DNA from: a virus
Reading direction: 5' to 3' (one strand)
Virus record (IMG/VR): IMGVR_UViG_3300030329_002907
Coordinates: 1-35,766 of that record
Length of the DNA: 35,766 bases
The notes beneath the pieces were generated by a model that was given only the letters and a program-made list of their open reading frames with translations, was not told the DNA's origin and ran no database searches. Within the stretch, counting starts at the first letter, position 1; each line of letters begins with the position of its first letter. Positions 16,791 to 31,603 of this stretch are shown in pieces. The position numbers were made by a program, and so were the translations under genes.

Positions 16791-17215
16791 ACATCCATGC
16801 GGAATGGTGTGGGGGCTGTAAATATCATACATTTCCGTATGAAGCACAACTGCCTATTAAAATAGACGGTATTTATGAAGTACGCAATTTTACTTGTAAA
16901 GAAGATGTATGGGAAATAATTGATTTATTAATTAGAGAGGCTAATGAATACAATGAACAGGGTAAAGAGTTTGATATTGCAAAATCCGTCAATGCTCAAT
17001 TACCCTTTTTTTGTTGTAAAAATATAGTGCATGATAGAGAAATACAAAAAGATATTGAACGATATGTATATTGTGAGCAGTTTGGAATTTCACCGTATCC
17101 TGGTAGTTACGGGGAACAACCTGCGAAATGGGTGGATAGGGCGTTTATTATTAAAAATACCCTTGCTAAAAAACAAAAGGATCAAATAGATGGCACAAGA
17201 AAAAATAACAATTAA
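16763..17215 (+). CDS. tail chaperone frameshift extension (gpT-like)
   Basis: Open in the -1 frame from 16727 to a stop at 17215, with no ATG, GTG or TTG before the GTG at 17027, so it is best read as the extension made by -1 shifting. From 16763 it adds 150 residues to gpG residues 1-88, giving about 238. It carries EWCGGCKYH, FTC, FFCCKN and YVYCEQFG: at least six cysteines, unlike lambda gpT, suggesting a metal site. The C-terminus is basic (LAKKQKDQIDGTRKN) and overlaps the tape-measure start by 26 bases, as in other phages. Confidence 0.7.
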   Translation, partial: GRERLQVEINIHAEWCGGCKYHTFPYEAQLPIKIDGIYEVRNFTCKEDVWEIIDLLIREANEYNEQGKEFDIAKSVNAQLPFFCCKNIVHDREIQKDIERYVYCEQFGISPYPGSYGEQPAKWVDRAFIIKNTLAKKQKDQIDGTRKNNN

Positions 17216-19241
17216 ATTTGAGCCACAGGGGCATACAAAGTTAATACAAGCATTAAACAATCTTCATAAAGCACAGAAGGGTGTAACAGTAGGTGCGAAT
17301 GGAACAACAAATGCAGTTAAAAAGTTTAGTGGTGTTGCCGCAGGGCTTACCGCAAAATTAAAATTACAAAATATAACTTGGAAGCAGCTTGGGGTTTCAA
17401 GCGATATTCTTAAAAAAGCATATCAAGGTAATAGGCTTGCTTTAGAAAAATTAAAATTAGCAATGCAGGATACAACAAAAGCAGGTTTATTCCAAACAAA
17501 TTCAAACAGGCTGCTTTCTAATTCATTTGCTACACTTCGATCCCAACTATTGCTTGTTGCTTTTGCATCAACATTGTTTGCACAAACCCTAGGTAGGTTA
17601 ATGAAGGCTGCTGTAGATCAGCAAGATGCAGAGCTAAAACTAGCTGCATCATTAGGCAGAACATCCAAAGAATTGTTAAATCATGCATCAGCTATGCAGC
17701 AAGTTACAAAATTTGGAGATGAAACAGTAATATCGGCTCAATCTATGATTGCAGCATTTATTAAGGATGAGGAATCTGTAAAGGCTTTAACTGAGGCAAC
17801 CATAGATTTGGCGGCAGCAAAAGGAATGGATTTGACGGCAGCAGCAGATTTGGTCGCTAAAAGCGTAGGTTCTTCTACAAATGCATTATCTAGGTATGGA
17901 ATTGCTGCAACTGGAGCTGCAAAATCAACAGAAAGAGCTGAAAGCATAGTTAAGAATATAAGCGTTTTATATGGAGGTCAAGCTAAAGCTCAAGCAGAAG
18001 GCTATGCAGGAACTATAGAAGGAATGAAAAATGCGATAGGTGATGCTGCTGAATCAATAGGAGAGTTGATAGCTCCAGCCATAATAACATTTTCTACATT
18101 GCTTAAAAATTTATCCAATATGATAGAACTTGCAACAGATGGTTTACATACTATTGCTGTTGCTACAGATAATTTCTTTTTTGGTCTTACATCTATAAAA
18201 AAGGCTACTGTTGATTATTCTAGCGATCTTGCAGTTTTTCAGGAAGGTTTATCCGATTTAAGTTTTGGTGAGATTACAGATGAGCTAGAACAAATGGAGA
18301 ATATGTTTAAAAAAAATAATAAAACTTCTAATGAGGGGAGCGTCTTTTTAAATAAGAACAGGAAAGATATTAATGCTCTAATAGCACCTGTTCAGGCTTT
18401 AGCAGCAAGCACAGGTCAATTAAATAATGGAAATAGTGAAATGGTTGCTACATCAGAAGCATTAGCAAATGCAATGGCACATGAATTAGATATAGCAGAT
18501 AGGTTAAAAATAATTGAAGGCGAAAGAATAAAGCGTCAAGCGACTGCACAAGAGCTATATTCGAAGACAGGAGAAGCACAAGCATCTAATACAAGAGCTA
18601 TGATAGAATGGGTTAAGCAAAATGAAAATGCATTTGAATCTACATCTGCATATCTTTCTGTATTAAAAATGCTAGAAAATCAATTAAATAAAACAGGCGA
18701 AGGATGGACTGCTCAGGCTAGCATTGCTGGTTCTTCTATGGGAAAAATATCTAAATCGTTAGTAACTATGTCTAAAGATAATTTCAATCAAACTCAAATG
18801 GCTTTACAGTTAGGTAAAGCAGAGGGAATTGCTAATATAGTAGTAGGTGCATCAACAGCTATAAAGGCAAAAGGATTGCTTGGGGTTTTAGAGGGCGTTG
18901 CTATTATGTCATCAGGAATGGCATTGATAGCAAATATAGATCGACAGATAGCTGCTGCTAAATCGGCTGGAAAGTTTGAACAGGGTGGTTTAATAGGTGG
19001 TAGAAGACATTCGCAGGGTGGTACTATGATTGAAGCGGAACAGGGTGAATTTGTTATAAATCGAAATGCGGTTGAATCTATTGGATTAGAAAATTTAAAC
19101 AGGATGAATCAAACAGGGGGTGGTGGTGCGATTAATGTTTCTATTTCTGGTAATGTTATGTCGCAGGACTTTGTTGAAGGCGAATTAGCAGAACAAATTA
19201 AAGAAGCAGTTCGCAGAGGAACTGATTTTGGTGTTGGATAA
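17190..19241 (+). CDS. tail tape measure protein
   Basis: 683 residues, alpha-helical, Ala/Gln/Lys-rich. Hydrophobic stretches at about 118-133, 292-307 and 555-590 may insert in the host membrane during ejection. The C-terminus has the common tape-measure ending: FEQGGLIGGRRHSQGG, then EAEQGEFVINRNAVESIG. By the usual 0.15 nm per residue, the tail would be near 100 nm. It follows the chaperone pair and precedes the large tail-tip gene (TAATG). No lysozyme or peptidase motif seen. Confidence 0.85.
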   Translation: MAQEKITIKFEPQGHTKLIQALNNLHKAQKGVTVGANGTTNAVKKFSGVAAGLTAKLKLQNITWKQLGVSSDILKKAYQGNRLALEKLKLAMQDTTKAGLFQTNSNRLLSNSFATLRSQLLLVAFASTLFAQTLGRLMKAAVDQQDAELKLAASLGRTSKELLNHASAMQQVTKFGDETVISAQSMIAAFIKDEESVKALTEATIDLAAAKGMDLTAAADLVAKSVGSSTNALSRYGIAATGAAKSTERAESIVKNISVLYGGQAKAQAEGYAGTIEGMKNAIGDAAESIGELIAPAIITFSTLLKNLSNMIELATDGLHTIAVATDNFFFGLTSIKKATVDYSSDLAVFQEGLSDLSFGEITDELEQMENMFKKNNKTSNEGSVFLNKNRKDINALIAPVQALAASTGQLNNGNSEMVATSEALANAMAHELDIADRLKIIEGERIKRQATAQELYSKTGEAQASNTRAMIEWVKQNENAFESTSAYLSVLKMLENQLNKTGEGWTAQASIAGSSMGKISKSLVTMSKDNFNQTQMALQLGKAEGIANIVVGASTAIKAKGLLGVLEGVAIMSSGMALIANIDRQIAAAKSAGKFEQGGLIGGRRHSQGGTMIEAEQGEFVINRNAVESIGLENLNRMNQTGGGGAINVSISGNVMSQDFVEGELAEQIKEAVRRGTDFGVG

Positions 19242-22200
19242 TGGCAGTACCTAATAATTTTTATAGAGATATTCAGGGCAAAAATATACAAATATTTCCT
19301 GTTGTTCGCATTAGTAATGCAACGGGTGTCGATATAAGACTTAGCACTAACTCTGTTTCTTACCCTATTGGTTCTCCAGATAGCCCAAGCGTGCATTGGA
19401 TGCCTACTTTAGTTAGCCTTCCTGCTATTAGGGAATCAGTAGATTTAGAAAATAGAAACTATAGAATATCTAATTTAACATTAAATATTTCAAATGTGCC
19501 ATATGATGGTAAAAGATTTACTGAGTTATTTAATAATTCTCTAACAAATGCAGAGGTTCGCATATGGTGGATTAGCCCAAGCGTTACCCATGTTCTTGCA
19601 TACGATCAAGGTGGGGAATACTTTGATGATTCTGCAATGCAGGTGTTTTATGGTAAGGTTCGCAGATATACTCACGATGACGAGAAAGTTCAAGTTATTG
19701 TTGAAGATCAAAGCCAATCTATTTTTGATAAACAAGTTCCAAATAAATCTACAGGTGGTGAGGTTAATGTGCCTGAAAAATTTAGAAATAAGCCACTACC
19801 TATTGTGTATGGAGTTGTTGATAAAAGCCCTGTTATGCCCTATTTTCAGGAAGTGGAAGGTGATACCTTAAAATACAAACTATTAGCATCATATCCAGCA
19901 ACAGATGATAATATAACTATTGATGGAATTAAGCAATTTAGAACAAACGATTTAGATCAATTAGGTGTTACAGTAAGGCAATCTACACTATACTTTTACG
20001 ATAATAATACTTATTTCAATGTATCGCAAACATTTGAAAATATAGATGATGGTGCTGAAAACTTTACGCCTAAAGCAGCCGATGGGGTTATTGAATTAGA
20101 AGGCGACATATTGGAAGAAGGCGATGATTCTAATAGTGTTGGAAATGATACTACAGCAGGTAGGTTAAGGGTCGTTCAAATAAGGGATTATGAGAAAGCT
20201 ACAGCAATACCTTGGCAAGATGGAGTTGGAGATAATTATATAGAGTTTGAAAGTGCAGATGGTGCTATAGGTAGAATAGATGGAATGATTCATGTTAAAG
20301 AAGCTGGTGAATATACGAGCTATGGTACATTTGGTTTCTTTAAATTAAAATTACAGGATATGGAATTGCCTAATAATATATCCGAAGGTGAAGAACCAAC
20401 TACAAAGGTTTATATTCGTGGAAACAATTTTAGCTATAGTAGTGCTGGGAATAGCCCCGACGATGAAAATGTAAATCCACCTTGGAGTAGTGGAACTGAT
20501 GAAAATTTTAGAACAAATTGGGGTGTATCTGTAAACACTTCTTTATCTGTTAATCATGTAAATAATCAGGATGTAAATACAACAAGGCAATCTTTTGGAT
20601 TTTATCAAACCAAATACATAACTTCCACAGGATTAACAGAATTTGATTTTATTGATGACAATGAAAATGAAATCTTTAAAACCTTGCAACAGTACACCCA
20701 TATTAATGTTGGTATTCCGCTACATTATAACAGCACTAATGAAGATGCTTATTCTGGCGAAACAGATTTGTTTGTGCATTTCACCTTATATGACTTTAAG
20801 ATGAAACATTCGTTTCTAGTAGATGGAATCAATGATAAGGAATTTTATGCTAATGTTTTTGGAAGGAGTATAAATGCTTCTGATAAAAGATGTAGATGGG
20901 CATATTATATTATAAGTGATTTGCTAAAAAGTGAATTAGGTTATGAAAAATCTATACCATATATTGCAACAGATAACGAAACACTTTACCCTATAGATAG
21001 TGATCCAGGCACAGATCATTTAGATTTTACTTTAGATAAAAAAATAAGCTCAAAAAAACTTATAGAAGATATATCATCTGTTAGTTCGCTAATACCACAT
21101 TTTGATAATATGGGTAACTTTAAACTAGACTATATAAAGCCTGTTTACACTTTAGACGATGGGCTGATAGTTCAAGCATCGGATGTAATTAGCCATAGTT
21201 ATTCACGAACAAAAATAGAAGATGTTTATACAAAGGTAATTGTAAAGTATAAATATGACTATGCTAGGGATAACTTAATGTTAGAATCTAAGCATACAGC
21301 TATTAGAAAGTGGGATGCGGATAACGAACTAAATGTAGGTGGTTTTCACAATTTTGAACTATATGGTGGCTCAGGTTCTATTTTGCAGGATTATGTATAT
21401 GACTATTATAGTTTTCCAAATACAAGTAATGCCGATTCTACGCTAGTTATTGAAGATGATAGAAGTAAGTATATACGGGATACTAATACAGCCAATAATT
21501 ACGCAAAATGGCTCTTATTTTGGCATTGTAATCAACACTTGATAATGAAGATAAGATTACCCCTTAAATACTTGTATTTAGAAGTAGGAAACATTATTGG
21601 TTTTGATAAACAAATAGGTGATGTTAAGCCTTATGGAATAAAGTATGATAGGAATATAGATTATCAGGATACTACGGTAATTGGGCATATGATAAATGGG
21701 CAACAAGCATTTCCGCATTTTATGGTTACAAGCCTTTCAAAAACCCTAAAATATGTAGAAGTAGAAGTAATACAGATGCACAATTTATCAAATAATATTA
21801 TTACAGCAGGTGCGATAGGCGGTGCAGTAAACTTAGATGCTTATGGGCGTGAACCTATTAATATTAATTCTGAGGCAACATATTCTGATGGTAGTGAGAT
21901 TTATGCAACTCCAACTGGGGATGAAGGTATATGCGGTATCTTAGACACAGAAGAATATGTATATAATAATGATAATTATGATCCGCTAGCCGATCCAAAT
22001 ACAGCTATAACCAATGATGGTTTATATGATGAAACTCTATGGAATCAGTTAGGCATAGTTGGGGGTAAGACAACCCCGCAAGCATACGAAGGCAGTATGA
22101 CACATTTCGCATTTGATACATTATCTTCAGCACAAACATATTATAATAATTTTCATGAACAGCTAGAAGAGCAACAGGGCTTTCCTACAAATACAGTATG

Positions 22201-23986
22201 GTATATTATGCCCGCACAGGGATGCGAATTATCAGGTTATGAACCACCGCCACCCGAGATCACTACAGGTCATGTTAAAATGCACCCTACACCACAAGAC
22301 ACACCATTGGATGAAACATGGATTACTATGGATATAGATGATATATGGCAGTATTTTGATAGTATAACTTCAGAGCTTTATAGTATACAAAATTTCTTTT
22401 TGCATACGAAAATAGAATATATAGAAGACCCTATGTTGCCACTAACCGAAATGCAAATCAAAGTAGAATTTTCAATAGATGGACAAATTTATAGCGAAGT
22501 AATTATAACTGAAGTTGCAAGTATAGATAACTTAATTGGAACAGCAATATTTGATTTGGGTGCTGTACTTACACTTGCTTGGTTTTTGCAAGATCATCTT
22601 GCTAGTCCTGTTCCTTATGTCGAAGTCTTTGCGAAGCCTGTCTATAATTCATCTAGGGATACAGATGAAGGCACAGAAGCAGGTTGGGTGCAATTAGGAA
22701 AAGTTCTTATTCCATATGATTGGGTTGATCCGTGGGCAGAATATGAATCTTTAGACCCACCAAATGGCTATTATAGACTAGCTGAAGACTTTGATGGTTA
22801 TAATGTAGGTATTACGGCTTATAAAATTTATTTCTCACAAAGCAATTTAGATCATCATTCAAGATCAAGTTATTTAACCAATGATGAATTTAATGATTTT
22901 ACTACTGGGAACAATAATCCATTTGTAAAATTTGAGCATTATGGTGATGATGAAGAATATGATCGTGTTGAATTGGCAAATAAAATATCTGCGATAGAAT
23001 CACTACCTGTTTTGCCCGATGATTATTTTGGAGCAAGAACATCGTTTATTGAACTACTTGATGATAATGGTGATATGGATTTTTTTATTCCAGATGCAGA
23101 TGGGATTTATTTTAAACAAAATGTTCATACCATTTTATACTTTCCTGCTGGATTGCGTTTAGTAGCTTTCCATAGCTTGGGCAAGATGGACGAAGTTTCC
23201 ATTGGATATACATATTCAAACAATGTAGGAAAATATATTTTAACATTCAATATAAAGGATGTTATAGAAAGTTATACAACTTCATCTGGGGAAACTAAAT
23301 CTGGTTCTTATCATTCAGAAATTTTAAGGCAATTTAATCATGTTTGCGAATATAATATACCTGTTTCGTTATATATAAATATGGAAATGTTGGCATTAGA
23401 TATAGCAGCTAAGCCAGACGGTGCAAAATTTACAAATGCGGCAGGTTTTTCAAGAGAATATTCTCAAGCATATTATTTTTTAAATAATGTTGTTCAATAT
23501 TGGGAGGGTAATACAAGTAAACCTAGAACGCATGGTCTAGCTTACTCTATAGGTGAGAATAAGGTAACTACTTCTGTGGAAAAAATGCAGATAACTTTTG
23601 GAATAGAAATAGTCGAAGATACACAAATACTAGGTGGCAGCATCCTAAATATGTTTAGATATTTATTTGGTGATCCCGCAGAAGGTCAAGAATTTAGTTT
23701 TAATGTGATGGATGAAGATACGGGTCAGGAAACTGATATTTTTAGCAAGTATATTGATATTATTGCCCAAGAAATAGCTGGAGAAGACCCTACTACGGGC
23801 GAAGAAAGTACATTAATTAGGTATGATGTAAATCAAGATGGTGCAGTAAATATTTATGATGTTGTTACGCTTACTAACCATATATTTTCAAATGATCCCT
23901 ATAATGTTAATTATGATCTTAATAATGATGGCGTTGTGGATGTGTTAGATGCAATACTTGTTATTAACCTTATTTTGGAGGAATAG
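19241..23986 (+). CDS. large tail-tip/hub protein with C-terminal dockerin
   Basis: 1581 residues, the largest gene. The N-terminal 200 residues include VFYGKVRRYTHDDEKVQVIV and an RNKPLPIVYGVVDKSP box typical of tail-hub proteins of marine siphoviruses; a long strand-rich middle may bear fibre domains. Residues 1528-1581 are a dockerin-like pair of calcium loops: YDVNQDGAVNIYD (D1529, N1531, D1533, D1540) and YDLNNDGVVDVLD (D1559, N1561, D1563, D1570), each followed by a hydrophobic helix. The dockerin could bind a cohesin-like partner or act as a Ca-stabilised cap. It is overall acidic. Likely host-recognition or baseplate role. Confidence 0.75.
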   Translation: MAVPNNFYRDIQGKNIQIFPVVRISNATGVDIRLSTNSVSYPIGSPDSPSVHWMPTLVSLPAIRESVDLENRNYRISNLTLNISNVPYDGKRFTELFNNSLTNAEVRIWWISPSVTHVLAYDQGGEYFDDSAMQVFYGKVRRYTHDDEKVQVIVEDQSQSIFDKQVPNKSTGGEVNVPEKFRNKPLPIVYGVVDKSPVMPYFQEVEGDTLKYKLLASYPATDDNITIDGIKQFRTNDLDQLGVTVRQSTLYFYDNNTYFNVSQTFENIDDGAENFTPKAADGVIELEGDILEEGDDSNSVGNDTTAGRLRVVQIRDYEKATAIPWQDGVGDNYIEFESADGAIGRIDGMIHVKEAGEYTSYGTFGFFKLKLQDMELPNNISEGEEPTTKVYIRGNNFSYSSAGNSPDDENVNPPWSSGTDENFRTNWGVSVNTSLSVNHVNNQDVNTTRQSFGFYQTKYITSTGLTEFDFIDDNENEIFKTLQQYTHINVGIPLHYNSTNEDAYSGETDLFVHFTLYDFKMKHSFLVDGINDKEFYANVFGRSINASDKRCRWAYYIISDLLKSELGYEKSIPYIATDNETLYPIDSDPGTDHLDFTLDKKISSKKLIEDISSVSSLIPHFDNMGNFKLDYIKPVYTLDDGLIVQASDVISHSYSRTKIEDVYTKVIVKYKYDYARDNLMLESKHTAIRKWDADNELNVGGFHNFELYGGSGSILQDYVYDYYSFPNTSNADSTLVIEDDRSKYIRDTNTANNYAKWLLFWHCNQHLIMKIRLPLKYLYLEVGNIIGFDKQIGDVKPYGIKYDRNIDYQDTTVIGHMINGQQAFPHFMVTSLSKTLKYVEVEVIQMHNLSNNIITAGAIGGAVNLDAYGREPININSEATYSDGSEIYATPTGDEGICGILDTEEYVYNNDNYDPLADPNTAITNDGLYDETLWNQLGIVGGKTTPQAYEGSMTHFAFDTLSSAQTYYNNFHEQLEEQQGFPTNTVWYIMPAQGCELSGYEPPPPEITTGHVKMHPTPQDTPLDETWITMDIDDIWQYFDSITSELYSIQNFFLHTKIEYIEDPMLPLTEMQIKVEFSIDGQIYSEVIITEVASIDNLIGTAIFDLGAVLTLAWFLQDHLASPVPYVEVFAKPVYNSSRDTDEGTEAGWVQLGKVLIPYDWVDPWAEYESLDPPNGYYRLAEDFDGYNVGITAYKIYFSQSNLDHHSRSSYLTNDEFNDFTTGNNNPFVKFEHYGDDEEYDRVELANKISAIESLPVLPDDYFGARTSFIELLDDNGDMDFFIPDADGIYFKQNVHTILYFPAGLRLVAFHSLGKMDEVSIGYTYSNNVGKYILTFNIKDVIESYTTSSGETKSGSYHSEILRQFNHVCEYNIPVSLYINMEMLALDIAAKPDGAKFTNAAGFSREYSQAYYFLNNVVQYWEGNTSKPRTHGLAYSIGENKVTTSVEKMQITFGIEIVEDTQILGGSILNMFRYLFGDPAEGQEFSFNVMDEDTGQETDIFSKYIDIIAQEIAGEDPTTGEESTLIRYDVNQDGAVNIYDVVTLTNHIFSNDPYNVNYDLNNDGVVDVLDAILVINLILEE

Positions 23987-24412
23987 ATGAAGGCAAAGCT
24001 ATCTTATGGTGGGGGAGTATTATCAGTATCTGGAAGTGGCATTGCGGGCGTAGAAATAAATTATTCAGGTGCTTTTGAATATTCTATAGTTGCCTCTGTT
24101 ATGTTAAATGTTCGCATATCAAGTAATAAAATATTGATATTATCGCAATACAGAAAAATGGACATTGAAGGGGATATATTTACATACAGGGGTGAATTGT
24201 CGGTTAAAAAGGTTGTTTTTGGCGATTGGCAGGCAAATAAAATACCACATACTATATCAGAGATTGGGTCTTCTACAGCAAATAAATTATTATCTACCCC
24301 AGAAACAATGACTATTAATGTTGAAAAAATGAAATCGGGTAATATTGTAGGGCGAAGGGTAAAGAAAACAAAAATAGCATTAAATAAAATTATAAAACCA
24401 GAGGCGATTTAA
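23987..24412 (+). CDS. small tail protein after the hub
   Basis: 141 residues, beta-rich then basic. It starts with KLSYGGGVLSVSGSGIAGVEI; the last third is Lys-rich (VGRRVKKTKIALNKI). Placed directly after the hub gene and before two paralogous tail proteins, with TAATG to the next gene. Ribosome site GGAGG lies in the hub's last codons. Probably a distal tail component; no family recognised. Confidence 0.55.
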   Translation: MKAKLSYGGGVLSVSGSGIAGVEINYSGAFEYSIVASVMLNVRISSNKILILSQYRKMDIEGDIFTYRGELSVKKVVFGDWQANKIPHTISEIGSSTANKLLSTPETMTINVEKMKSGNIVGRRVKKTKIALNKIIKPEAI

Positions 24413-25500
24413 TGGCTTATCAGAATGTATCCACGCCCAGATTTTATGTTTCTATCTTGCAATACCTAAAGCATTTTGGGTTACTAACGATGACATCTGA
24501 AGACACGGTTCAATATATTTCTAATAAAGAACCATTGAGTTTGGTTGATGTAAACCCATCTTCCCAAGCCATAATAAATGTTGGTGGTGATGGTAGCCAA
24601 GGTGGTGATTTGCCGATTGTTTACAGGTTAAATGACGGGCTTAGTTTCCAAAATATTATGCCTAGTGATCAAAACTTTTTTATGACATTGGGGCATAAAT
24701 TCGCTGAAGGTGTTTCAGATGGTCATGTAAAATGCTATGGTAGAACTGGATCGTATGGTACAATAAATGTTGCTACAACAGGTGTTATTAATTTTAATGA
24801 TGCTAAGGAAGCAGATTATAATGGTTTTAGCATTTCCAAGGGTAATGATGCTCAATATTTAGACGAACAAATACAAATTTTTATATCACAGTATAAAACA
24901 GGTTTTGACTATCCAATAGGATGTTTTTTATATGGAACATATTATGATATGACTTCAAGTCCTAATTTGTCCTTAAAGATGTCAAGGGAATACGGCAATA
25001 CAGATGAACAGGTAACGCATAACGGTTCTTCCTTTATAAACCAGGCTTGGCTAAAGCCACCGAATTGGGGTGAAGCAGGAGCTTGGGAAATATATAACAA
25101 TACTGCAACAGGGAATAGTGCTTGGATAAACACCGACAAAGATTTATCTAGGAGTGGCAGGAAGTCTTGGGATTTAAAGTTTTCATACATAGATGATAGT
25201 GATATATTTGGTTCTAATCAATCTATATCTAATTTAAATATAGTTGATACCAATTATGATAGTGGCGATATTACCAATGCAGGCGACTTTGAATTTAATT
25301 TACTAACTGATAATAGTTTTTTTTCGCAGGTATGGAATAAGACATTAGGGGGTACATTACCCTTTGTATTTCAGCCTGATAATTCCAATAACAACCCTGA
25401 TCAATTCGCAGTATGTCGTTTTGTAGGGGATTCGCTAAAAGTAAATCAAACAGCATTTAATGTTTATGATATTTCCTTAAAAATTGAGGAGGTCTGGTAA
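24412..25500 (+). CDS. tail protein, tandem paralogue 1
   Basis: 362 residues. It shares the start MAYQNV.TPRF, a middle SR.GR..WDL.F.Y box and the last 60 residues (SQVW.KT.GG.LPF.FQPDN, NPDQFA.CR) with the next gene. Strand-rich and acidic. Probably a receptor-binding or side fibre protein at the tail end. TAATG joins at both ends. Family known to me only as a recurrent marine-phage tail protein. Confidence 0.6.
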   Translation: MAYQNVSTPRFYVSILQYLKHFGLLTMTSEDTVQYISNKEPLSLVDVNPSSQAIINVGGDGSQGGDLPIVYRLNDGLSFQNIMPSDQNFFMTLGHKFAEGVSDGHVKCYGRTGSYGTINVATTGVINFNDAKEADYNGFSISKGNDAQYLDEQIQIFISQYKTGFDYPIGCFLYGTYYDMTSSPNLSLKMSREYGNTDEQVTHNGSSFINQAWLKPPNWGEAGAWEIYNNTATGNSAWINTDKDLSRSGRKSWDLKFSYIDDSDIFGSNQSISNLNIVDTNYDSGDITNAGDFEFNLLTDNSFFSQVWNKTLGGTLPFVFQPDNSNNNPDQFAVCRFVGDSLKVNQTAFNVYDISLKIEEVW

Positions 25501-26624
25501 TGGCTTATCAAAATGTAGGAACTCCGAGATTTATAATAGATTGGATACAATGGTGGAGATCGTTAGGACTTGCATATGGATCAAGTGTATGGAATGCGTC
25601 AGCACCATTCGAAGAAAACGAACAAAGAGCAATAGATAAGTTGATTAGCTTAGACCCGACAACACAGACGATAGTAACAAATGTGGGAGATCATGTTGGA
25701 GGTGATTATTTTAATTATTTAATCGGAACTACTAAACCTTTTCCTGTAGACTTGATTAATATCGTCGGAATATTAGGGCATAATTTCGCAAACATACCTG
25801 GAAGTAGATTTTCTTATTCATTTCATAACGGAACTGGTTACCCGTATATCAAATTGACTGAAGATATTGTTATAAACGATGCTCTAGGCACACAGAAGCA
25901 AAATTCTATGTATCCAATACAGAATGGATTCACGCTAAGATCATCAAGTGGATCGACAGATGGAACTCCAGTTACTGGCGGTGGCGGCTTACAACCGAAT
26001 TTATATGATATTGGAGAATATGTTAATTCTGAAATAAAACTTGGTTCGTTTTTAGCAGGAAGATATTATGACCTTCCACATAGCCCAGAATTAAATCTAA
26101 CTATGACCAATGAAATGGATGGTGTAAAGCGATCCCGAACAAAAGCTGGGGCAGATATAGTAAATTATAGATATACAAAAAGCCCTATGTGGGGTGATCT
26201 ATCACCGTGGGAATTACATGATCCCACAAACCCAACTGCCTTAGATTATCAAAAGATGTCAAGAGTAGGTAGGCGTGTATGGGATTTAAGTTTTAATTAT
26301 TTATCAGCTAGTGATTTAAATCCTGTAACTGAAGGCGTTTCTAAAAAAATAACTGATCCAGATGCCTTTGACAATGAAGCAGGAAACCCTATTTGGAGTA
26401 CTGGAGCTGGAACACATCACAATATAATGGAATCTGATGATTTCTATTCACAGGTTATACACAAAACTAATGGTGGGGCATTACCTTTTATATTCCAACC
26501 AGACAACAATAACAATAATCCTGATCAGTTCGCAATTTGCCGACTAGATATGAAAAGTTTTGTTTTCGATCAGGTAGCCAATGGTGTTTATAATGTTAAA
26601 TTAAAGATTAGGGAAGTTTGGTAG
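25500..26624 (+). CDS. tail protein, tandem paralogue 2
   Basis: 374 residues, a diverged copy of the preceding gene: same start, same WDL.F.Y box and same C-terminal LPFIFQPDNNNNNPDQFA-type block ending LKIREVW. The middle part (about 40-230) is much more divergent, as expected if it meets the receptor. Last gene of the rightward late operon; its 3' end overlaps the leftward NinB-like gene by 17 bases. Confidence 0.6.
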   Translation: MAYQNVGTPRFIIDWIQWWRSLGLAYGSSVWNASAPFEENEQRAIDKLISLDPTTQTIVTNVGDHVGGDYFNYLIGTTKPFPVDLINIVGILGHNFANIPGSRFSYSFHNGTGYPYIKLTEDIVINDALGTQKQNSMYPIQNGFTLRSSSGSTDGTPVTGGGGLQPNLYDIGEYVNSEIKLGSFLAGRYYDLPHSPELNLTMTNEMDGVKRSRTKAGADIVNYRYTKSPMWGDLSPWELHDPTNPTALDYQKMSRVGRRVWDLSFNYLSASDLNPVTEGVSKKITDPDAFDNEAGNPIWSTGAGTHHNIMESDDFYSQVIHKTNGGALPFIFQPDNNNNNPDQFAICRLDMKSFVFDQVANGVYNVKLKIREVW

Positions 26625-28211: not shown

Positions 28212-28625
28212 TCAATATATTTCCTCTATATAAACTTCCGTTCTTGGTTCTTCATCATATAGTTTTTCTGCCTGTATTCTGCATATCTGCGAATCATCTA
28301 ATATCATTTTATCTTTTCCTTGGATTGTATCGCAAACCATCTTGACTAAATTATCTAAATCTGGTGTGGACTTATGATATTCGGGAACATTATCTTTTAA
28401 TAAGTGTTTAAACTTGCCCGTTCTATAATGACTTTTAGGTCTGGGCATATAAAATGTTATGAAGATCATAATATTGCCAATAAGGGGTGTTTTTGGGCGA
28501 AATTTAGCTATTTGAAGCCACATATATTTCTTATCTTTCGCAGATGGATCATACATTCTTCCTGTCCTAGTGCTACGATGTCGCTTTAATGCTTTAGGTT
28601 TGGAATGAATAGTAAATTCAATCAT
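28212..28625 (-). CDS. rusA: RusA-like Holliday junction resolvase
   Basis: 137 residues. The RusA core is clear: TPDLDNLVKMVCDTIQGKD with D89, D91 and D99, then ILDDSQI (D110, D111), and an N-terminal KALKRHRSTRTG basic strand. It resolves four-way DNA junctions left by recombination, which suits a phage without its own polymerase. It overlaps the PAPS-reductase-like gene by 8 bases. Confidence 0.9.
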   Translation of the reverse strand: MIEFTIHSKPKALKRHRSTRTGRMYDPSAKDKKYMWLQIAKFRPKTPLIGNIMIFITFYMPRPKSHYRTGKFKHLLKDNVPEYHKSTPDLDNLVKMVCDTIQGKDKMILDDSQICRIQAEKLYDEEPRTEVYIEEIY

Positions 28626-29379
28626 TGAGTTCGTTTACAACAAGCCCGCAGCTTAAATCGCAGCTAATTGCTGGTTCTGTTTTATAATTCCCAGCATCAT
28701 CGGGCAATTCATCAAGCCAAATTCTTTCATTTGTTTCCATATCTCTAAACCTAGAATGTCCTATTTCTCTCTCTATTTTAGCCATTTTGTCAAAATGTTC
28801 AGGAAAATCGTTTCTAATCTTGTTCCAATATCCCATACCACCCTTGACACATCCTATGCAATTATTATGATTATATCCTAAATCGTACATTTTGGGCAAC
28901 TTTATCCCAGATTGCCAAAGTATTCCCAAGCAATTCTCCTTTGAAACATCTTTTTCTATTAATATCCAATCTACTCGCAATTCTGGGTTGTGTGTTTCAA
29001 ATTTGTTCGCCCTATTTTTTTCGTCTGATGTATACCCAAATATGTGTATATCGTTGGGTCTTTGATAATCCAATCTCAGTTTTTTCTTCAGCTCAACGGT
29101 GCATCTTGATCCTAGATGTCCATATAAATATCTTTCTTTTTTAAATACATCAAAGTGATCTTCATACTTATCGTTTTTCAATATAGTTATTGTTTTCCCT
29201 AACCACTTTTCGCAATCCTTTAAAAACTGCTTATTAGATTCGTGTTCGCCGCCGGTATCACAATAGACTATTTCGCAGTTTTGGTGTTTTTTTAATGCGA
29301 ACTTGGCTGCAACAGCAGAGGCTGCACCGCAGCTAAACCATACAACCGCCCTTTGTATGTTGTTATTAATAATTGTCAT
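28618..29379 (-). CDS. PAPS reductase-like PP-loop protein
   Basis: 253 residues from ATG 29379; TTG 29391 is possible, and both lie inside the upstream gene. It has a PP-loop-like WFSCGAASAVAAK (S16-S21, where SGGxDS is usual), YCDTGGEHESN, GSRCT (C93), CIGC (C174, C177) and a terminal CDLSC (C240, C244). This is the phage branch of the phosphoadenosine phosphosulfate reductase / ATP-pyrophosphatase family. Real substrates in phages are unknown; tRNA or DNA thiolation, or sulfate use, are possibilities. The cysteines may hold a Fe-S cluster. Confidence 0.75.
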   Translation of the reverse strand: MTIINNNIQRAVVWFSCGAASAVAAKFALKKHQNCEIVYCDTGGEHESNKQFLKDCEKWLGKTITILKNDKYEDHFDVFKKERYLYGHLGSRCTVELKKKLRLDYQRPNDIHIFGYTSDEKNRANKFETHNPELRVDWILIEKDVSKENCLGILWQSGIKLPKMYDLGYNHNNCIGCVKGGMGYWNKIRNDFPEHFDKMAKIEREIGHSRFRDMETNERIWLDELPDDAGNYKTEPAISCDLSCGLVVNELND

Positions 29380-29476
29380 CGTCTGTATCAAACTTAGATA
29401 GGTTTAAAACAAGTAGTAGCAGTAACCCAAGTATGCAACCTACCCACATACCAATTAAAAACCCTACCCAGAACAT
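29366..29476 (-). CDS. single-span membrane miniprotein (36 aa)
   Basis: ATG 29476. The helix FWVGFLIGMWVGCILGLLLLLVL spans residues 2-24 in groups (FWVGFLIGMWVG, CILGLLLLLVL) with a G-x-x-x-G packing pattern, followed by an acidic tail (KFDTDDDNY). Layout like the DUF3789 type of phage miniproteins. It overlaps the start of the PAPS-reductase-like gene by 14 bases. Confidence 0.5.
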   Translation of the reverse strand: MFWVGFLIGMWVGCILGLLLLLVLNLSKFDTDDDNY

Positions 29477-30664: not shown

Positions 30665-31603
30665 TTAATTCCTAACATTTTTTTCTCCCTGTGTTATTAA
30701 ATCAATACCCCGAAAAAGAAATCTTGGATATTCTTCTGTATTATCTTCTTTCAAATCTTTTACAAACTTAGAAACAGATTTTAAAAACAGATCATTCTTC
30801 TCTCTGGTTAGATCGCCTAATTCCTCATCAAGGCAATGGATATTAAAATTGCTATTTATTATATCTGTAGCATCGCCATAAAAAAATTCACATATTCTTG
30901 GAATATCATCAAATTTATAATATTTATTCATTTCACATAAAAGTTTTTTCAACCTTGCCTTTTTCCAGTAGACCATACTGTATTCAGTTCGTATATAACT
31001 GTCAATTTCTCTAAATTCTCCCCTTATATCATATTTCTTATTGTAACATATACCGCCAATCTTATTAAAAGCGTTCTCCACCTCCCCTTTGTCAAACAAG
31101 CCATCCCTAATTGATACATAATGATTAAAAGCTGTATCCATTGCGTCATAAATCAATAAAGCATCAAATTGCTTTATAACGCCTGATAATTGCTTTTTAC
31201 CCGCCTCAGATAAATAGAATTGACATAAATCGGTATTAAGTTTATCCTCCCAATACTTAGCCAACTTATTAACTTGAAGGTCGTTCACAGAAGTTAAAGA
31301 ATCTCTCCACTCTGACATCATCTCAATTTGTTGCCTTCTTTCTGCAATATCATCAATCTGTTTTCTCTGTTTTTTTAAAACTCCATCGTCTTTCAGCTTT
31401 CTTGCAGACTTTCCTATATTACAACCCTTACAGGAAGTAATTAGGTTCATAATAATATTATTTCCACCATGTTTCACAGGATTAATATGATCAACCTCTA
31501 ATAAAACATCTGGAGCTTTACTTCCACAATACTGACAGGTAAAAGAATCTCTTTTAAGAACCTCGAATCTTATTTTTTTAGATAAAGTCTTTCTTTTTCC
31601 CAT
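30665..31603 (-). CDS. HNH endonuclease-domain protein with long C-terminal region
   Basis: 312 residues. The N-terminal HNH domain is complete: VLKRDSFTCQYCG (C23, C26), VDHINPVKHGG (D38, H39), N53, and SCKGCNIGKS (C58, C61). Residues about 75-312 are helical with no known motif and contain an acidic end. Because it sits between a replication-type gene and small early genes, it may process DNA during replication rather than be a free-standing homing nuclease, but homing is not excluded. Confidence 0.75.
   Translation of the reverse strand: MGKRKTLSKKIRFEVLKRDSFTCQYCGSKAPDVLLEVDHINPVKHGGNNIIMNLITSCKGCNIGKSARKLKDDGVLKKQRKQIDDIAERRQQIEMMSEWRDSLTSVNDLQVNKLAKYWEDKLNTDLCQFYLSEAGKKQLSGVIKQFDALLIYDAMDTAFNHYVSIRDGLFDKGEVENAFNKIGGICYNKKYDIRGEFREIDSYIRTEYSMVYWKKARLKKLLCEMNKYYKFDDIPRICEFFYGDATDIINSNFNIHCLDEELGDLTREKNDLFLKSVSKFVKDLKEDNTEEYPRFLFRGIDLITQGEKNVRN

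Follow-up and report, generated by a model that had tools for sequence, protein, structure and literature searches.

Dockerins are the plugs with which some bacteria attach enzymes to scaffolds, and cohesins are the matching sockets. A phage tail-hub protein carries a type I dockerin at its C-terminus, and the gene immediately after it codes for a small protein with a predicted cohesin fold. We consider it probable that the two products form a phage-encoded, Ca-dependent cohesin–dockerin joint in the tail tip. The DNA analyzed here, referred to as the window, is a viral stretch of 35,766 nucleotides (IMG/VR record IMGVR_UViG_3300030329_002907). Across the window and its relatives both parts are present and conserved, both folds were recovered in models, and the two genes are adjacent almost without exception. 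In the proposed joint, the C-terminal dockerin of the hub would be one half. It would bind the cohesin-fold protein in the Ca-dependent manner of cohesin–dockerin pairs, and the resulting complex, presumably at the tail tip of the virion, would hold that protein, together with a C-terminal extension that is often long and flexible, at the far end of the tail.

The hub protein and its C-terminal dockerin

The relevant genes lie in a row on the plus strand. The tail tape measure gene (17190–19241; 683 aa; phrog_27166, E 1.5e-8) served as the anchor for finding relatives. It is followed by the gene for the 1581-aa hub or tail-tip protein with the C-terminal dockerin (19241–23986), by the 141-aa cohesin-fold gene (23987–24412), by a 362-aa tail-tip family protein that always comes after the cohesin-fold gene and whose family occurs in 64 contigs including the window (24412–25500), and by a 374-aa paralogue with 33% identity to the 362-aa protein (25500–26624). 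An adhesin or fibre role for the 362-aa protein would be a guess. Such tandem paralogous tail proteins (24412–26624 in the window) are present in two or three copies in L049, L081 and L089. Elsewhere in the window, the minus strand encodes a GP88 family protein (220–828), a RusA resolvase (28212–28625), an HNH endonuclease (30665–31603) and a PAPS reductase domain protein (28618–29391; PF01507, E 9e-7) that is possibly an auxiliary or DNA-modification gene.

The relatives, given L-numbers as related viral contigs or loci, are uncultured phages; 48 contigs were reached through the tape measure and 80 loci through hub alignment. No isolated relatives of the hub, the dockerin or the 362-aa protein were present among 50,697 phage records. 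Of the 49 loci collected first, 34 have a hub homologue, with the N-terminal ~200 aa conserved. The name "tail hub", given in the initial annotation, is fair in that the gene follows the tape measure gene and has homologues in the same place. Its profile support is weak: one of 25 hub members (L017) has an N-terminal match to the baseplate-hub profile PF09931, below the cut-off (E 0.0058), and the window hub protein has no significant match to it.

The hub ORF closes with the stretch YDVNQDGAVNIYDVVTLTNHIFSNDPYNVNYDLNNDGVVDVLDAILVINLILEE. Residues 1528–1579 (23822–23977, plus strand) match PF00404, Dockerin_1, with E 2.2e-7 and 31.4 bits when the whole 1581-aa protein is searched, and with E 7.2e-10 and 39.4 bits when only the C-terminal 128 aa are used; the curated cut-off is 22.9 bits. 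In a six-frame search of the window the dockerin scores 37 bits. Both Ca loops, DVNQDGAVNIYD (23825–23860) and DLNNDGVVDVLD (23915–23950), carry the complete D-x-N-x-D-G-x6-D pattern. Solved dockerins were matched at the sequence level (2y3n_B, E 1.3e-4; 1daq; 2mte). The fold itself was recovered in the model of a relative, L121, which superposes on 8x39_A with Z 10.2 (2.2 Å over 63 residues) and on 6kgc_B at 1.4 Å over 58 residues. The segment is a genuine type I dockerin with both Ca loops intact. The initial annotation had read it in this way from the paired loops and had named a profile search and structure prediction as checks; both agree with it, the first in the window and the second in L121. 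A chance Ca-loop motif is ruled out by the profile score and by conservation across 62 contigs.

Those 62 contigs yielded 64 distinct phage dockerins. Their Ca-ligand columns are 84–98% conserved in loop 1 (D96 N84 D90 D98) and 87–98% conserved in loop 2 (D98 N87 D93 D98), and conservation extends beyond the ligands to a surface motif, N60/D34 V/I L60 D98 I/V V87. PF00404 was matched above its cut-off in 24 of the 48 first records and in 25 of 46 further records, and many of the records lacking it are contigs that end before the 3' end of the hub gene. Among hub proteins complete at that end, 23 of 25 match PF00404 at E <= 1. The dockerin usually makes up the final 60 residues of the hub. Some phages have it 200–400 residues before the end instead, or in a separate ORF of 186–225 aa between the hub and the next gene (L012, L086, L088, L089, L092, L100, L151, L155). 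A second dockerin sits mid-protein in tail proteins of the 362-aa family in L081 (9221–11032) and L082 (4311–5627); the inserted L082 dockerin adjoins a GCTDPLATNYN...DDGSC repeat. Tandem or extra loops were seen in L010, L121 and L136.

Pairwise dN/dS between close relatives is mostly 0.10–0.25, with a maximum of 0.39, in both the dockerin and the cohesin-fold part. The phage dockerin is thus widespread and under purifying selection. A recent one-off capture is ruled out, since most relatives have a dockerin.

The neighboring gene and its predicted fold

A small gene between the hub and the 362-aa family is present in nearly every relative. A search for a phage-encoded classical cohesin came up empty: PF00963 had no match in any of 49 records, nor in any of the 48 members of the small-gene family even at E 10. 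A cellulosome scaffoldin with cohesins was likewise not encountered, as neither the window nor its relatives contain PF00963 and the proteins tested are phage-type. Because no classical cohesin was found, the neighbor was folded. A cohesin-like sandwich had been proposed from length, spacing and sequences before the 141-aa protein was modeled.

AlphaFold2, given an alignment of 48 relatives, predicted nine strands with a pLDDT of about 88–97 over residues 1–90. When this model was compared with the PDB by Foldseek, ranks 1–9 were all cohesins (E 5.6e-4 to 9e-3), followed by the family of cellulose-binding domains at E 0.034. VIA-align gave an equally uniform list, with cohesins making up 30 of the 31 chains at Z 8.0 or more (range 10.1–8.0) and a chitin-binding domain, at Z 8.0, as the first family of another kind. 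Superpositions on cohesins included one with Z 10.1 (3.9 Å over 100 residues) and one with Z 8.6 (2.4 Å over 91 residues). The L121 protein is only 21% identical to that of the window, and its model also matches cohesin (Z 9.1). Two independent models therefore agree in giving the 141-aa neighbor a cohesin fold, a nine-strand jelly-roll sandwich; lacking a PF00963 match, the protein is filed here as "cohesin fold" and not as a member of that family. The closest viral models are unnamed proteins of 140–268 aa, together with one of 1389 aa.

The C-terminal tails of many cohesin-fold proteins share HIH...MTGxxH and often end in GGGGY (L015, L016, L024, L049, L078, L081, L089, L118, L128, L158 and others). 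In L035 (15324–16892) the cohesin-fold domain continues into a long fused extension, which by eye looks like a LamG-type lectin domain; the whole protein has 523 aa.

In the window the TAG stop of the hub directly abuts the ATG of the cohesin-fold gene in the same frame (23984–23989), so read-through of the stop would yield a hub–dockerin–cohesin fusion. The same-frame junction, TAG ATG or TAA ATG, also occurs in L010, L049, L120, L121 and L124. In L121, where the neighbor follows the hub stop in frame and its N-terminal 25 residues form a linker, the stop was read as a residue (table 6), which gave AlphaFold2 a natural single chain. Both domains folded in this model and matched dockerins and cohesins, respectively, and both halves of the 6kgc–6kgf complexes were among the best matches; the pTM was 0.55, with no confident mutual placement of the domains.

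These models bear on the possibility that the dockerin is merely a Ca-stabilised end cap or spacer with no partner, and that its neighbor resembles cohesins through a common fold only. The cohesin similarity is indeed at the level of fold only, a Z of 8.0 is also attained by sandwiches of other kinds, chitin-binding domains for example, and the read-through model has the pTM just given. Nonetheless, an end cap does not fit the conserved surface beyond the Ca ligands, the purifying selection, the uniform list of cohesin matches or the adjacency of the genes, and we consider this explanation very improbable.

Co-occurrence of the two parts

A dockerin was found in the same tail-tip cluster in 77 of the 86 contigs that hold the cohesin-fold gene; one further contig has a fusion and eight have no detectable dockerin. 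The contigs are related to each other, so these counts are not independent events. The dockerin is at the hub C-terminus in 57 of the 86, inside the hub in 4 and in a small ORF between the hub and the cohesin-fold gene in 8, and a further 8 were recognized by Pfam matches, two of them below the cut-off, or, in the case of L113, because its hub resembles one of these. Of all 77 calls, 71 rest on a dedicated phage dockerin profile or on an above-cut-off Pfam match and 2 on sub-threshold Pfam scores (L004, L094), the rest being weaker internal dockerins with a Pfam match or with a resemblance to those that have one. Both parts are absent from L003 and from 14 outgroup contigs that are related via the tape measure only.

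The eight contigs with no dockerin detected beside the cohesin-fold gene (L079, L090, L139, L140, L141, L143, L145, L186) retain that gene, so the cohesin-fold protein can serve some purpose without a dockerin. Five of them, L139, L140, L141, L143 and L145, form a sub-group. A loose observation is in keeping with the docking model. In one group of dockerin-bearing phages the cohesin-fold protein ends in a Gly/Ser-rich ...GGGGY tail; in L140, L141 and L143 it is the hub itself that ends in GGGGY or GGSGY, and the cohesin-fold protein has no tail.

The fused contig is L169. Its hub (1616 aa) passes without a break into the cohesin-fold domain (E 2e-33), and of its dockerin a single loop is left, AGDVDNNGAIDIDDF, with no PF00404 match. 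Such decay would follow naturally if the job of the dockerin is to hold the cohesin-fold domain, although it is a single case. No further fusion was found in viral_contigs; BFVD A0A516LNX3 (1389 aa; match over 96 columns, 2.2 Å) may be another.

Among 31 de-duplicated phages, dockerin distances followed neither those of the hub N-terminus (rho 0.01) nor those of the 362-aa protein (0.10). Their correlation with cohesin-fold protein distances was weak (0.16; partial 0.215; permutation p 0.008) and is supportive only, because permuting labels takes no account of relatedness and the two coding stretches lie side by side, so that joint transfer could produce the same signal.

These patterns must also be read against a rather unlikely alternative, in which the dockerin points away from the virion and its target is a host cohesin, either on the cell surface or within a surface complex. 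It would then be a module for receptor binding acquired by copying host secreted proteins, and the neighbor would be unrelated to it. The dockerin does move about freely, occurring at the end of the hub, in its interior, in an ORF of its own and, in L081 and L082, within the 362-aa family. Its divergence is not coupled to that of the phage backbone, as in host-range modules, and 18 relatives carry other secreted-protein-like repeats, GCTDPxAxNYN and DECGVCNG, in the same region. However, binding to a host cohesin does not predict the cohesin fold of the next gene and gives no account of why the dockerin has decayed in the sole hub fused to a cohesin-fold domain. One would also expect phages to lose a receptor-binding domain, or to exchange it for others, more often than retention in 77 of 86 contigs indicates.

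The two functions might be combined, with the virion exchanging with host cohesin–dockerin complexes and the phage cohesin-fold protein also capturing host dockerin proteins. The extra dockerins that L081 and L082 carry on the 362-aa family beside the hub dockerin would suit this, as would the tandem or extra loops of L010, L121 and L136. The scans of GTDB genomes described below gave no host, however, and thus no host cohesins or dockerins for comparison, and we regard a combined function as quite improbable.

We therefore favor the self-encoded joint. The initial annotation had listed recruitment of a partner, next to binding of a cohesin-bearing host surface protein, among several roles for the dockerin, and the cohesin fold of the adjacent phage gene makes that partner specific, the binding itself being what we infer. 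An extension that we think unlikely is that Ca gates this tail-tip joint, which would stay open in the cytoplasm, where Ca is low, and close after release into Ca-rich water. Were this true, addition of the last piece of the tail tip would take place outside the cell, or the release of that piece would be a Ca-sensing step of infection.

Host, literature and known systems

Repeats of the GCTDPxAxNYN / DECGVCNG type are common in secreted proteins of Bacteroidota and Marinimicrobia. Cys-rich repeats of this kind lie beside or before the dockerin in hub C-terminal regions of L004, L016, L019, L049, L081, L084, L096, L111, L134, L149, L152, L153, L156, L158, L160 and L169, and on a tail protein in L082. 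They are a possible host lead. They also make it plausible that the dockerin is a module taken from the host, as the initial annotation suggested, although no donor was identified. The same annotation had expected the dockerin to lead to the host's identity. That expectation was not borne out, as neither the tape measure nor the 362-aa tail protein had a relative in two scans of GTDB genomes. Terminase homology did not name a host, its matches being at about 30% identity and in a wide range of hosts, and GP88 matches were likewise scattered over many hosts.

Few known protein joints are as strong as cohesin–dockerin pairs, which are also a workhorse of protein engineering. In the literature that we found they belong to bacteria and archaea, not to virions. 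A search for phage dockerins returned two passing remarks only, one on VvAW1 gene 40 (PMC3558961) and one on HSE2 Gp02, with a dockerin carbohydrate-binding-module model (PMC5967307). No description of a virion cohesin–dockerin pair was found in the literature searched, the coverage of which is incomplete.

The dockerin alone is a known domain in a new setting; should the two proteins bind, a known joint would have a new use. A viral pair present in a whole clade, with both halves neighbors in one operon, would be a new building principle for phage tails. It would also supply about 60 natural pairs for testing specificity and a means of controlling tail-tip assembly through Ca. A dockerin that gripped host cohesins instead would represent a new receptor strategy and a pointer to the host.

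The phage dockerin resembles the type I dockerins (PF00404) of cellulosomal and non-cellulosomal bacterial enzymes in having two repeats of Ca loop plus helix, internal two-fold symmetry and a length of about 57 aa. Like them, it belongs to a large protein, secreted or structural, and is located close to its end, and the fold match, in the L121 model, is 1.4–2.2 Å. It differs in its carrier, which is a tail protein encoded beside the tape measure gene, whereas theirs are hydrolases. The cohesin-fold protein shares the nine-strand sandwich of cohesins (PF00963), with its best matches among the non-cellulosomal ones of Archaeoglobus (2xdh) and Clostridium perfringens (2vo8/2jh2). In contrast to those, it spans about 95 residues rather than about 140, has no sequence-profile match, and is a single-domain protein in a phage tail operon. 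The complexes 6kgc–6kgf of C. acetobutylicum and 2vn5/2vn6 contain the same pair of folds, whereas the phage complex is a proposed one. With phiJL001 Gp84-like baseplate hub proteins (PF09931), the hub shares the place after the tape measure and, in L017, the weak N-terminal match noted above; the window hub has no significant match and its C-terminal part differs. Accessory surface domains of the BACON or Ig-like type occur on phage tail proteins. Unlike these, the phage dockerin would be half of a plug-and-socket pair whose other half is encoded next door.
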